From: Mycolicibacterium litorale
Lineage (GTDB): Bacteria > Actinomycetota > Actinomycetes > Mycobacteriales > Mycobacteriaceae
Assembly: GCF_010731695.1 (NCBI RefSeq)
Contig: NZ_AP022586.1
Span: forward strand, 2,294,001-2,358,000
Direction: 5' to 3'
Length of the DNA: 64,000 nt
A program made the position numbers and the translations under genes. The notes under the pieces are model-generated. The model saw only the letters and a list, made by a program, of their open reading frames with translations, ran no database searches and was not told the DNA's origin. This document shows positions 14,303 to 17,866 of the stretch, in pieces. Position 1 is the stretch's first letter; each line of letters begins with the position of its first letter.

Positions 14303-15715
14303 GTGGGGCACTTCGATATCGCGATCATCGGAACGGGTTCGGGCAACACGATTCTCGACGAGCGGTATGTCGACAAGCGCGTCGCCGTGTGCGAGGAGGG
14401 CCTGTTCGGCGGCACCTGCCTCAACGTCGGCTGCATCCCGACGAAGATGTTCGTGTACTCCGCCGGGGTGACCCAGAACGTCCGTGAGGCAGCGCGATTC
14501 GGTATCGACGCCCACGTCGACGGCGTGCGCTGGAGTGACATCGTCTCGCGCGTGTTCGGCCGCATCGACCCTCTGGCCACCGGCGGTGAGCACTACCGGC
14601 GGTCGTCGCCCAACGTCGAGGTGTTCGACAGCCACACCCGGTTCGCCGATGTGCTGCCCGACGGCCGGTACCGCCTGCGCACCGAGGACGGTGACGAGTT
14701 CACCGCCGATCAGGTGGTGATCGCGGCGGGTTCGCGCGCGACCGTGCCGCCGGCCATCGCCGACTGTGGGGTGGCCTATCACACGAGTGACACCATCATG
14801 CGGCTGGCGGAACTGCCCGACCACATCATCATCGCCGGCGGCGGTTACGTCGCAGCGGAATTCGCGCACATCTTCTCGTCGCTGGGGTCGCGGGTCACGA
14901 TCGTCATCCGGGGGACGGCCATGCTGGCCCATGCCGACGACACCGTCTGCGAACGCTTCACCGACATCGCGGGCAAGAAATGGGAGATCCGCAGTCGCCG
15001 CAACATCGTCGGCGGCTCCACCGACGAGTCGGGGGTGACGCTCAACCTCGACGACGGTTCCTCGCTGCGCGGTGACGTACTACTGGTCGCCACGGGGCGG
15101 GTGCCCAACGGCGACCGGCTCGACGCGCATCTGGCGGGGGTGGCGGTCGAGCACGGCCTGGTCACCGTCGACGAGTTCCAGCGGACCACCGCGCGCAACG
15201 TCTTCGCCCTCGGCGATGTCAGTTCGCCCTATCAGCTCAAGCACGTCGCGAATCACGAAGCGCGCGTGGTGAAGAACAACCTGCTCATCGACTGGGACGA
15301 CACCGATGCGCTGATGCCGGCCAATCACCGCAACGTCCCGTCGGCGGTGTTCACCGAACCGCAGATCGCCTCGGTCGGCCTCACCGAGAACGAGGCGCGC
15401 GCACAGGGATACCGGATCAGGACCAAGGTCCAGGATTACAGCGACGTCGCCTATGGCTGGGCGATGGAGGACACGTCCGGTTTCGCCAAGCTCATCGTCG
15501 ACGACGACAGCGGGATGCTGCTGGGCGCACACATCATGGGCCACCAGGCGTCGTCGATCATCCAGCCGCTCGTCCAGGCCATGGCGTTCGATCTGCCCGC
15601 CCAGGACATCGCACGGGGTCAGTACTGGATTCATCCGGCGCTGCCCGAAGTGGTCGAGAACGCTCTGCTGGCCCTGTGCGGTGAGCCGCCGTGGCCGCCG
15701 GCGCGGCAGCACTGA
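14303..15715 (+). CDS. mtr: Mycothione reductase
   Basis: Mtr is a FAD/NADPH disulfide reductase that regenerates mycothiol, the actinobacterial thiol buffer. The 470-residue protein begins with the FAD motif IIGTGSGNT. The redox-active cysteines are Cys39 and Cys44 in GGTCLNVGC. It has the NAD(P)-binding [13 protein letters not shown], the second FAD site ARNVFALGD and the C-terminal [12 protein letters not shown] with the catalytic His/Glu. The GTG start at 14303 follows a GGGGGG tract. Its last 158 bases are overlapped antisense by the sigma-factor gene. Confidence 0.95.
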
Positions 15716-16304
15716 ACGCGGGCAGGTAACCCCGCGCGACCGCGACGTCGGTGAGCAGTCGGCGCAACCGGGTCCGCCCCCGGTGCAGCCGCGACATCAC
15801 CGTGCCCAGCGGAATGTCGAGGACCGCCGCGATCTCCTTGTAGCGCAACCCTTCCACGTCGGCGTAGTAGACCACCAGCCGCTGGTCGACGGGCAGACCC
15901 GCCAGCGCGGCGCGCACGTCGTCGTCACCCATAGCCTCCAGCGCCGCGAGTTCGGCCGACGGCAGCCCGGTGGAGGTGTGGGCGGCCACCGCGGCGAGCT
16001 GGGCGTCGGTGACCTCGGCGTTGACCTCGTCGGGGCGGCGCTGGGCTGCACGGTAGGAGGAGATCCAGATGTTGGTCATGATGCGCAGCAACCACGCCCG
16101 CATGTGGGTGCCGTCACTGTAGGAGTGGAACCCCGCGTACGCCTTGGTCAGCGTCTCCTGGACCAGGTCCTCGGCGTCAGCAGCGGTGGTGGTGTAGCGG
16201 CGCGCGGCGCGGTAGAGGGTGTCGACCAGCGGCAGCACGTCGCGCGTGAAGCGCGCGGTGAGGTCGTCTGCGCTCGTTGTCGGTTCATCGGTCGTCGTGC
16301 CCAC
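15558..16304 (-). CDS. ECF RNA polymerase sigma factor, SigH-like, with antisense-overlapping C-terminal tail
   Basis: A 248-residue group 4 sigma factor. Region 2 is visible as AEDLVQETLTKAYAGFHSY and LLRIMTNIWISSYR; region 4 includes YYADVEGLRYKEIAAVLDIP and GTVMSRLHRGRTRLRRLL. The pattern is closest to mycobacterial SigH. No zinc-type anti-sigma gene adjoins it. The last 50 or so codons, after VARGYLPAF, run antisense into mtr and are Pro/Arg-rich, longer than the family needs. The GTG at 16304 coincides with the predicted transcription start of a MerR/SoxR-type promoter; a TTG at 16325 would lie inside that promoter and is rejected. Confidence 0.88.
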   Translation of the reverse strand: MGTTTDEPTTSADDLTARFTRDVLPLVDTLYRAARRYTTTAADAEDLVQETLTKAYAGFHSYSDGTHMRAWLLRIMTNIWISSYRAAQRRPDEVNAEVTDAQLAAVAAHTSTGLPSAELAALEAMGDDDVRAALAGLPVDQRLVVYYADVEGLRYKEIAAVLDIPLGTVMSRLHRGRTRLRRLLTDVAVARGYLPAFSAAAPAATAAHRTGPAERSRPLRAAPDESSTDPVRCPGRADRTPWPGRAAG

Positions 16305-16310
16305 ACGGGC

Positions 16311-16341
16311 AGACTGGCACCTCAACCGAAGTTGAGGTCAA
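16311..16341 (-). promoter_or_regulatory. MerR/SoxR-type operator-promoter for the ECF sigma gene
   Basis: On the minus strand a -35 TTGACC (16341-16336) is followed by a 19-base spacer and a -10-like CAGTCT (16316-16311). The spacer is longer than usual, as in MerR-family promoters. A perfect palindrome with arms ACCTCAAC and GTTGAGGT (16319-16338) fills the spacer and touches the -35. It resembles the SoxR box (CCTCAA...TTGAGG). The predicted start falls on the GTG at 16304, so the mRNA would be leaderless. The -35 overlaps the end of cbiO. No MerR-family gene is in the window. Confidence 0.7.
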
Positions 16342-17096
16342 GTGATTTTCCCGGGGATGGCGAAGCCCCACGGCAGTTCGAGCCGGTGTGCGGCCAGCAG
16401 ATCCGCGTCCGAGAGCAGGTCGCCGATCGGGCCGTCGGCCACCACCACACCGGCGTCGACGATCACCGCGCGCTCGCAGAGTTGAGCGGCGTACGGCAGG
16501 TCGTGGGTGACGACGATGGTCGTGGCGTCGATCCCCGCCACGGTCTCGGCGAGCTCGCGGCGCGCGACGGGGTCGAGGTTGGCCGACGGTTCGTCGAGGA
16601 CGAGGATCTCCGGTTCGCAGGCGAGCACGGTGGCAAGGGCGGCGCGTCGACGCTGGCCCGCCGACAGATGCGTGGGGCTGCGATCGGCTTCGTCGGTGAG
16701 TGACACGGTCATCAGTGCACGACGGACCCGCGCGGCGAGTTCGTCGCCGCGCACCCCGAAGTTGGCTGGTCCGAACGCCACGTCCTGGGCGACGGTCGGC
16801 ATGAACAGTTGGTCGTCGGGGTCCTGGAACACCAGGCCGACGCGCCTGCGGATGTCGGCCAGCGTGGTGCGCCGCACCGGTGTCCCGCCGATGTGCACGG
16901 TGCCCGCTGTCGCCTCCAGCACACCGTTGAGGTGCAGCATCAGCGTGGTCTTGCCCGCCCCGTTGGGGCCGAGCACCGCGACGCGTTCCCCGGCGCCGAC
17001 GGTGAGATCCACACCCGCCAGCGCAACGTGGCCGTCGGGGTAGACGTGGCGCAGCCCCTCGACGCGGACCGCAGGCGCCTCGATCGGCCCGGTCAC
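16338..17096 (-). CDS. cbiO: Cobalt ECF transporter ATPase CbiO
   Basis: The 252-residue ABC ATPase powers the CbiMNQ cobalt permease at the inner face of the membrane. Motifs: Walker A GPNGAGKTT, Q-loop VFQDPDDQLF, signature LSAGQRRRAALA, Walker B ILVLDEPSANLD and the H-loop VTHDL. The start is the GTG at 17096 overlapping the cbiQ stop (GTGA); the open frame extends 22 codons upstream through an Arg-rich shadow of cbiQ. It is the last gene of the leftward cbiMNQO operon, and its 3' end carries the -35 of the sigma-factor promoter. Confidence 0.92.
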   Translation of the reverse strand: MTGPIEAPAVRVEGLRHVYPDGHVALAGVDLTVGAGERVAVLGPNGAGKTTLMLHLNGVLEATAGTVHIGGTPVRRTTLADIRRRVGLVFQDPDDQLFMPTVAQDVAFGPANFGVRGDELAARVRRALMTVSLTDEADRSPTHLSAGQRRRAALATVLACEPEILVLDEPSANLDPVARRELAETVAGIDATTIVVTHDLPYAAQLCERAVIVDAGVVVADGPIGDLLSDADLLAAHRLELPWGFAIPGKIT

Positions 17097-17866
17097 GGCA
17101 CCACCCAGGCCGCGGCGGCGACGGCGGCGGCAGCCGCGGCGGGCAGCAGCGCGACGGCCCACTGCGTGCGGCGTGCCGGAGGTGGCGCCCCGACCGCCGC
17201 CAGATCCGGTGTGTGGCCGTCGAATCCGCGGGACAACATGGCGATGTGGACGCGTTCACCGCGCTCGTAGGATCGCAGGAACAGCGCACCGACACCCTTG
17301 GCGAGGGCGCCGGCCTGATGCAGTGCGCGCGGGGAGTCGCCGCGCGAGATCCGGGCGATCCGCATACGGGCCGCCTCGGCGGTCAGCAGGTCGATGTAGC
17401 GGATCATCAGCACGAGCACCGACGTCATCACCGCGGGTACACGCAGCCGGCTCAGCGCGGCCGGCAGTTCGGCCGCCGGGGTGGTCGCGGCGACGGTCAG
17501 CGAAGCGGCGATGCCGAGGGTGCCCTTGGCGACGATCGCCCACGCCGCGTACAGCCCGGTCACCGACAGGGACAGGCCGGCGACGTCGATGCGTTCCTCG
17601 CCGTCGGCGAAGGGCAGCAGCACCGCGAGCACGACGAACGGCACCTCGATCAGCATCCGCGGCAGCGCCCAGCGCAGTGGGATGCGGGCGGCCCACCACG
17701 CGACGGCGACGATCATCCCGTAGAGCGGGTACGGCCAGAAGAGCTCTCGGGGGGTGGCGACGACGGCCAGTACGAACGCCAGCAGGCAGACGATCTTGGT
17801 CTCGGCGGGCATGCGGTGCACGGCGGAGTCGCCGTGACGATAGAGCGGATGCGCGCCCGCACCCAC
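17093..17866 (-). CDS. cbiQ: Cobalt ECF transporter transmembrane component CbiQ
   Basis: A 257-residue polytopic membrane protein of the EcfT/CbiQ family that couples the ATPase to the CbiM substrate subunit. Hydrophobic segments include IVCLLAFVLAVVATP and VPFVVLAVLLPFA. The coupling-helix motifs with Ala-Arg-Gly character appear as MRIARISRGDSP near residue 168 and MLSRGFDG near residue 212. The GTG at 17866 follows CAGGAGA, and the gene starts two bases after the cbiN stop. Confidence 0.9.
   Translation of the reverse strand: MGAGAHPLYRHGDSAVHRMPAETKIVCLLAFVLAVVATPRELFWPYPLYGMIVAVAWWAARIPLRWALPRMLIEVPFVVLAVLLPFADGEERIDVAGLSLSVTGLYAAWAIVAKGTLGIAASLTVAATTPAAELPAALSRLRVPAVMTSVLVLMIRYIDLLTAEAARMRIARISRGDSPRALHQAGALAKGVGALFLRSYERGERVHIAMLSRGFDGHTPDLAAVGAPPPARRTQWAVALLPAAAAAAVAAAAWVVP

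Follow-up and report, generated by a model that had tools for sequence, protein, structure and literature searches.

A SoxR-type promoter predicted to produce a leaderless mRNA for a SigH-like sigma factor in Mycolicibacterium litorale

The DNA under study, called the window throughout, comprises 64,000 nucleotides of the genome of Mycolicibacterium litorale (NZ_AP022586.1, positions 2,294,001 to 2,358,000). It contains a gene for a SigH-like ECF sigma factor, the convergent gene for mycothione reductase (mtr) and, upstream on the strand of the sigma gene, a cbiO-like gene (Table 1). Regions 2 and 4 of the sigma protein are intact (PF04542 and PF08281), which identifies it as an ECF sigma factor. 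The best PDB match by sequence is 5zx2, a chain named SigH (223.6 bits). The protein is classed as SigH-like and not as SigH because its 196-aa conserved part scores 238.8 bits against SigH_actino (TIGR02947), below the cut-off of 251.55. The nearest named relatives come from Mycolicibacterium vaccae, M. brisbanense and M. wolinskyi. No gene for a zinc anti-sigma factor is present near the sigma gene. Of the four zf-HC2 matches in the whole genome, even the nearest is separated from it by about 600 kb; that one adjoins the true sigH, at 2.91 Mb. Thus, the designation as an orphan SigH-like factor in the original prediction holds. The location beside mycothione reductase is equally correct, and the mtr neighborhood is conserved in relatives. 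With its C-terminal tail the sigma gene runs for 158 nt (15558-15715) into the 3' end of mtr, which is on the opposite strand; the orthologue L133 ends earlier, at 198 aa, and lacks a tail reaching into mtr.

Table 1. Features of the sigma factor locus (window coordinates) and predicted SoxR-box promoters of the same genome.
Feature	Position	Strand	Remark
Mycothione reductase (mtr), convergent downstream neighbor	14303..15715	+	TIGR03452, 786 bits; synteny
SigH-like ECF sigma factor gene, 248 aa	15558..16304	-	conserved sigma part about 16304-15717
GTG start codon, predicted start of transcription and leaderless translation	16302..16304	-	6 nt past -10
-10 element CAGTCT	16311..16316	-	A at position 2 and T at position 6, each in 88/90 genus sites
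19-bp spacer between -35 and -10	16317..16335	-	same length as in E. coli soxS
SoxR box, perfect 20-bp dyad ACCTCAAC-N4-GTTGAGGT	16319..16338	.	sequence and pattern scans
-35 element TTGACC	16336..16341	-	overlaps TGA stop (16338-16340) of upstream cbiO-like ORF
cbiO-like ECF-transporter ATPase, upstream same-strand neighbor	16338..17162	-	ORF as listed, start provisional
Sigma factor box promoter			start codon 6 nt after -10
MBL-fold hydrolase box promoter			start codon 6 nt after -10
Methyltransferase box promoter			start codon 6 nt after -10
Arylamine N-acetyltransferase (NAT) box promoter			start codon 6 nt after -10
MFS transporter box promoter			start codon 6 nt after -10
ABC transporter box promoter			start codon 7 nt after -10
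DoxX protein box promoter			start codon 8 nt after -10

The hexamers TTGACC and CAGTCT, the 19 bases which separate them and the GTG at 16304 had been pointed out beforehand and were confirmed on the minus strand by coordinates. It had further been claimed that a perfect palindrome fills the spacer. The dyad is indeed perfect, but it does not fill the spacer exactly: it covers the last three bases of the -35 element and most of the spacer. The spacer length lies within the 19-20 bp that mark MerR/SoxR promoters. Between -35 and -10 an 18-bp CCTCAA...TTGAGG dyad is positioned in the register known from E. coli; the soxS promoter of strain K-12 consists of TTTACC, 19 bp and TATACT, with CCTCAAG-N4-CTTGAGG in the same register. 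The position of the GTG agrees with a leaderless mRNA, for which an ATG or GTG is expected about 6-7 nt after the -10 element. Within the window the dyad has no other match at up to three mismatches. Genome-wide, the promoter-anchored pattern TTGACCTSAAN6TTSAGGT yields 25 matches at up to three mismatches, some dyads being read on both strands, vs. 6 for the reversed control; the site at 16304 is one of five perfect matches.

A search of the genome for a soxR gene and for the same box elsewhere had been suggested, and both were found. One SoxR scores above the cut-off (TIGR01950, 212 bits; cut-off 116.9), and its best PDB match is E. coli SoxR (2zhg, 170 bits). It is a canonical SoxR: the four cysteines of the [2Fe-2S] cluster (CX2CXCX5C) are identical to those of E. 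coli SoxR, and so is the stretch RSGVAVSALHFYE, which we take to be the recognition helix. At up to two mismatches the genome possesses eight distinct box sites. In seven of these, i.e., the 10 matches minus two opposite-strand readings and minus the site of soxR itself, the -10 element is followed by a start codon after 6-8 nt (Table 1). The exception is an imperfect box over the start of soxR, which stands outside the leaderless layout.

How general is this arrangement? We examined 248 genomes of the genus at up to one mismatch and found a box in 142 and a SoxR in 156; the reversed control pattern produced 4 matches in all. The box is present in each of the 125 genomes with a strong SoxR, in 14 of the 31 with a weaker SoxR and in 3 of the 92 without SoxR, the division into strong and weak having been made after the scores were seen. 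Comparing genomes with any SoxR against those with none gives a Fisher p of 1.6e-45, a value which ignores shared ancestry and is inflated because soxR and the boxes are inherited together.

The leaderless layout likewise extends beyond M. litorale. It was assessed at 90 sites, namely 30 loci of the survey and 60 further sites among the matches listed, which come from 14 genomes roughly in list order. This set excludes sites at sigma loci, ATGACC-type sites (mostly those of soxR itself) unless they read as TTGACC sites on the opposite strand, individual additional sites of the genomes G092, G004 and G201, and genomes later in the list. A start codon, defined as an ATG, GTG or TTG at the head of a frame of at least 60 codons, is located 5-8 nt past the -10 element in 75 of the 90; the other 15 look leadered. 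Under a stricter definition (ATG or GTG, frame of at least 120 codons) the distance is 6 nt at 40 sites and 7 nt at 31, together 71 of the 90, vs. 0 to 6 per position from 9 to 119 nt and 10 at position -2. Clustering the proteins of the 75 genus sites together with 8 from the genome of M. litorale returned recurring target genes, in clusters of 14, 11, 11, 10, 10 and 10 members followed by smaller ones. One group presumably is pyridoxamine-oxidase-like.

To compare the sigma genes themselves, 42 SigH-like loci were assembled, 30 best matches and 12 picked by hand, hence not a random sample. Two loci, L023 and L024, are on contigs equal in length to G212:C28 and G245:C28; they are apparently identical with L145 and L155 and were counted once. 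A box is present at 22 of the 42, these stemming from 22 genomes which all have a strong SoxR. At ten loci the box lies directly at the start codon, each time with the codon 6 nt past the -10 element; at the other twelve it is located about 190-230 nt upstream. We refer to these as direct and distal, respectively. At the sigma homologues the box recurs with differing central and flanking bases. In 13 genomes with a strong SoxR, mtr-linked homologues have no box. Among 80 loci of sigma relatives examined at up to one mismatch, three have a box, all from Mycolicibacterium: L023 and L024, with the box at the sigma gene, and L027, with the box about 2.9 kb downstream of it.

A tree was built of 45 proteins. 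The clade of the window's protein (support 97/95) unites five direct loci and a boxless duplicate from the same genome; L137 (direct) and L225 (boxless) join it weakly (70/62). Genes of this clade adjoin mtr and carry the box in five genomes, and a sixth, weakly placed, has both. A second clade of 13 members has no box at all. Twelve of these are from the genus survey and all twelve are beside mtr; the remaining one, from M. vaccae, was examined for the box only. L148, which has an internal stop and was therefore omitted from the tree yet retained in the box count, is also beside mtr and boxless like the second clade. In the third clade all 16 members have the box, four of them direct and twelve distal.

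We conclude that the site at 16304 very probably is a SoxR-activated promoter of a leaderless mRNA which encodes the SigH-like sigma factor. This is the best explanation because, according to passages of the respective papers, MerR-family proteins activate promoters with 19-20-bp spacers through DNA distortion (PMC9909328), and an ATG or GTG at +1 is enough for leaderless translation in mycobacteria (PMC4633059). The MerR-type regulator which the original prediction had called redox- or metal-sensing can be narrowed down to SoxR, and the leaderless reading, judged from sequence, gains support from the 75 genus sites and from all ten direct sigma loci. SoxR would occupy the box and in its reduced state leave the promoter off. 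Redox-cycling compounds would oxidize its [2Fe-2S] cluster, whereupon the long spacer would be untwisted and the housekeeping holoenzyme could open the promoter. The mRNA would have its 5' end at the GTG and be translated without a leader. The geometry of the promoter is classical; the target, a sigma factor, is unusual, and the output is predicted to be leaderless. Several points weigh against this reading: the mtr-linked relatives in 13 SoxR-positive genomes and the 88% identical duplicate in M. litorale itself are boxless, the site of soxR and 15 of the 90 genus sites deviate from the leaderless layout, and in M. smegmatis, as set out below, the effect of SoxR on gpr is small and negative and a SigF consensus precedes sigH3.

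The question then is what the sigma factor does. The product, SigH-family (ECF12-like) and encoded without an adjacent anti-sigma gene, would in turn transcribe further genes as a second tier, probably those of a SigH-like response to thiol or oxidative stress. We consider such a second tier somewhat more likely than not, with less assurance than the promoter itself. A search of the 64-kb window for SigH-type promoters (GGGAAY-N15-18-SGTT) found none. The main competitor accepts SoxR control and the promoter as described, yet dispenses with the second tier: the sigma factor might have no activity, might be sequestered in trans (by RshA or some other factor) or might be a duplicate undergoing decay. 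Several features speak for it. The genome has a second copy of the sigma gene at 2.70 Mb (L217, G000:C1:2698500-2701700), 88% identical and without a SoxR box. Next to it stands a short piece of mtr, from the 3' end (a 34-aa match); this looks like a partial segmental duplication. The tail of the window's copy runs into mtr, other than in orthologues such as L133, the protein remains below the SigH_actino cut-off, and its likeness to SigH (5zx2) leaves binding of RshA possible. On the other hand, sigma regions 2 and 4 are intact, and the clade of the window's copy has been kept beside mtr with its box, as described for the tree. On balance, we regard SoxR control lacking a second tier as rather unlikely.

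Much less probable is that another MerR-family regulator, a sensor of metals or drugs, uses the site. The genome has 12 MerR-family matches, and spacers of 19-20 bp are typical of the whole family according to a passage in PMC9909328. Furthermore, the presence of a SoxR does not always entail this pattern, since such boxes are lacking in 17 of the 31 genomes with the weaker class (about 175-201 bits among the scores listed); for the same reason that class may use another site. However, the box agrees with the E. coli SoxR site in its ends and in its length of 18 bp, and the boxes track strong SoxR, being present in all such genomes and almost absent where SoxR is missing. A metal-sensing MerR protein as first choice was rejected on these two counts.

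The dyad begins at the stop codon of cbiO and could pair as an RNA stem, i.e., it might be a terminator or hairpin of the upstream cbiO-like gene or operon and not an operator. This has very little in its favor. No T run follows the dyad, and the same dyad occurs at unrelated genes at a fixed distance from the -10 element. Of the six direct loci linked to mtr, four have cbiO upstream; L135 and L136 have kept the box, but no cbiO was found in their 1500-nt flanks. Finally, at the 90 genus sites complementary pairs in the dyad arms (positions 1-8) are no commoner than expected; only the center pair 9/10 is complementary more often, in 43 of the 90 vs. 26 expected. The lack of co-variation at positions 1-8 is what DNA half-sites, and not an RNA stem, would be expected to show, and the hairpin was rejected on the missing T run, the retention of the box without cbiO and the arms. 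Chance resemblance is next to inconceivable and was rejected: shuffled windows average 0.07 dyad matches at up to three mismatches and seven of 100 shuffles have at least one, but the actual site has no mismatch, its -35, -10 and start codon are correctly placed, and the arrangement recurs at sigma homologues elsewhere, with other bases at the center and in the flanks.

Returning to SoxR control of the sigma gene, one distal locus leads to M. smegmatis. In the 7.1-Mb genome G330 (locus L305) a SigH paralogue and a gpr-type gene diverge from a gap which contains a perfect box; the promoter of this box is oriented towards the sigma gene, not the gpr-type gene. The gpr family is present in 52 of 395 genomes; among 32 gpr loci scanned, only L305 has a sigma gene and a box within the flanks. 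In M. smegmatis a SoxR box has been reported upstream of gpr (MSMEG_0565-0572), and the effect of SoxR on this operon was only about 2-fold and negative (passages of PMC6039565). Judged by gene number, gpr adjoins the SigH paralogue MSMEG_0573. The latter was up 136-fold under 7 mM H2O2 according to an excerpt of PMC4520597, and for the same gene, there named sigH3, an excerpt of PMC4694148 notes a SigF consensus upstream, not SoxR. In the portions of these publications at hand, SoxR was tested on gpr and not on the sigma gene. We infer that M. smegmatis has the arrangement of G330 and that the gpr box serves the sigma gene.

Taken together, we lean somewhat towards the view that mycobacteria have evolved a SoxRS-like cascade of their own, with an anti-sigma-free SigH paralogue as amplifier, a mostly leaderless, genus-wide regulon and the gpr box as promoter of MSMEG_0573. 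Part of this view are two promoter layouts: in one the message is leaderless and begins on the start codon of the sigma gene, in the other the promoter is located about 200 nt further upstream, at a small leaderless ORF. The design shares with SoxRS of E. coli the regulator, the box, the 19-bp spacer and a transcription regulator as direct target, i.e., two tiers. The differences are that the second tier here is an ECF sigma factor and there an AraC-family activator, that the mRNA here is predicted to be leaderless, and that SoxR here seems to act on several effector genes without an intermediary as well. With the SoxR regulon of Streptomyces coelicolor it has in common that SoxR acts directly on few genes, which encode transporters and redox or modifying enzymes and have soxboxes in their promoters; the six targets given in the available part of PMC4146615 include no sigma factor. 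In M. litorale, in contrast, the set comprises a methyltransferase, NAT, an MBL hydrolase, MFS and ABC transporters and DoxX, and most of the genus sites look leaderless. SigH/RshA (ECF12) of mycobacteria and SigR of Streptomyces belong to the same sigma family as the window's protein, yet here an adjacent anti-sigma gene is missing and transcriptional control by SoxR is predicted.

Precedent exists for a transcription factor which raises a SigR-type sigma factor, i.e., the WblC-driven sigRp1 (excerpt of PMC4921905). ECF12s9 and ECF12s2 of Mycobacterium sp. are tabled under proposed transcriptional regulation, with no regulator named in the part of PMC8999054 available. According to a passage in PMC4459714, M. 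tuberculosis has no functional soxR. The introduction of PMC11351531, as excerpted, states that SoxR activates soxS in mycobacterial species; it was given no weight because it cites E. coli work. Among the titles and abstract openings listed from open-licence literature on SoxR in combination with Streptomyces, mycobacteria, sigma factors or leaderless mRNA, control of any sigma factor by SoxR does not occur, which is weak evidence of absence. The open-licence matches listed for MerR control of orphan ECF factors likewise contain no case of SoxR and a sigma factor.

If true, an ECF sigma factor as a SoxR target would constitute a separately evolved second tier, amplifying as SoxS does in E. 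coli; outside the enterics, as stated in the available part of PMC4146615, SoxR otherwise controls a few transporters and enzymes without an intermediate tier. It would also supply a regulator for SigH paralogues whose transcriptional control is only proposed in the table of PMC8999054. A testable SoxR regulon would be predicted for mycobacteria with soxR, and MerR-type spacer control would be linked to leaderless translation across a regulon.

Some further observations concern soxR and the sigma loci of relatives. The imperfect box over the start region of soxR is located at G000:C1:5549567-5549592 (L001, 1932-1949), and ATGACC-type boxes close to soxR are present in several genomes. Autorepression of soxR via its own box thus appears possible. 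The divergent gene beside this box presumably is arginine-deiminase-like.

The distal class comprises L145, L146, L149-L152, L155, L157, L160, L220, L222, L223 and L305. Here the SoxR promoter is predicted to start on a leaderless frame, often MTVRH...GVENRREPGGNPPGG, which is a small ORF of 20-60 aa except where it is fused to the sigma gene. In L145, L146, L149, L220 and L223 the frame is continuous with the sigma gene, and an extended isoform is predicted. Most of 11 aligned distal leaders contain GGGGGTAA(T/A)CCCCC or close variants. An Rfam search of five distal loci returned three matches, all far below the gathering scores; the leader consensus folds better than 60 column shuffles (-23.8 vs. 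-1.4), which is a weak control. We presume that the distal leaders may contain a second promoter of SigF type. The boxless mtr-linked loci L138-L141, L143, L144, L148, L154, L156, L159 and L221 have variants of an upstream stretch around GTTTCCTATGCACATCTGG, a candidate element which suggests a second mode of control for boxless sigma homologues.
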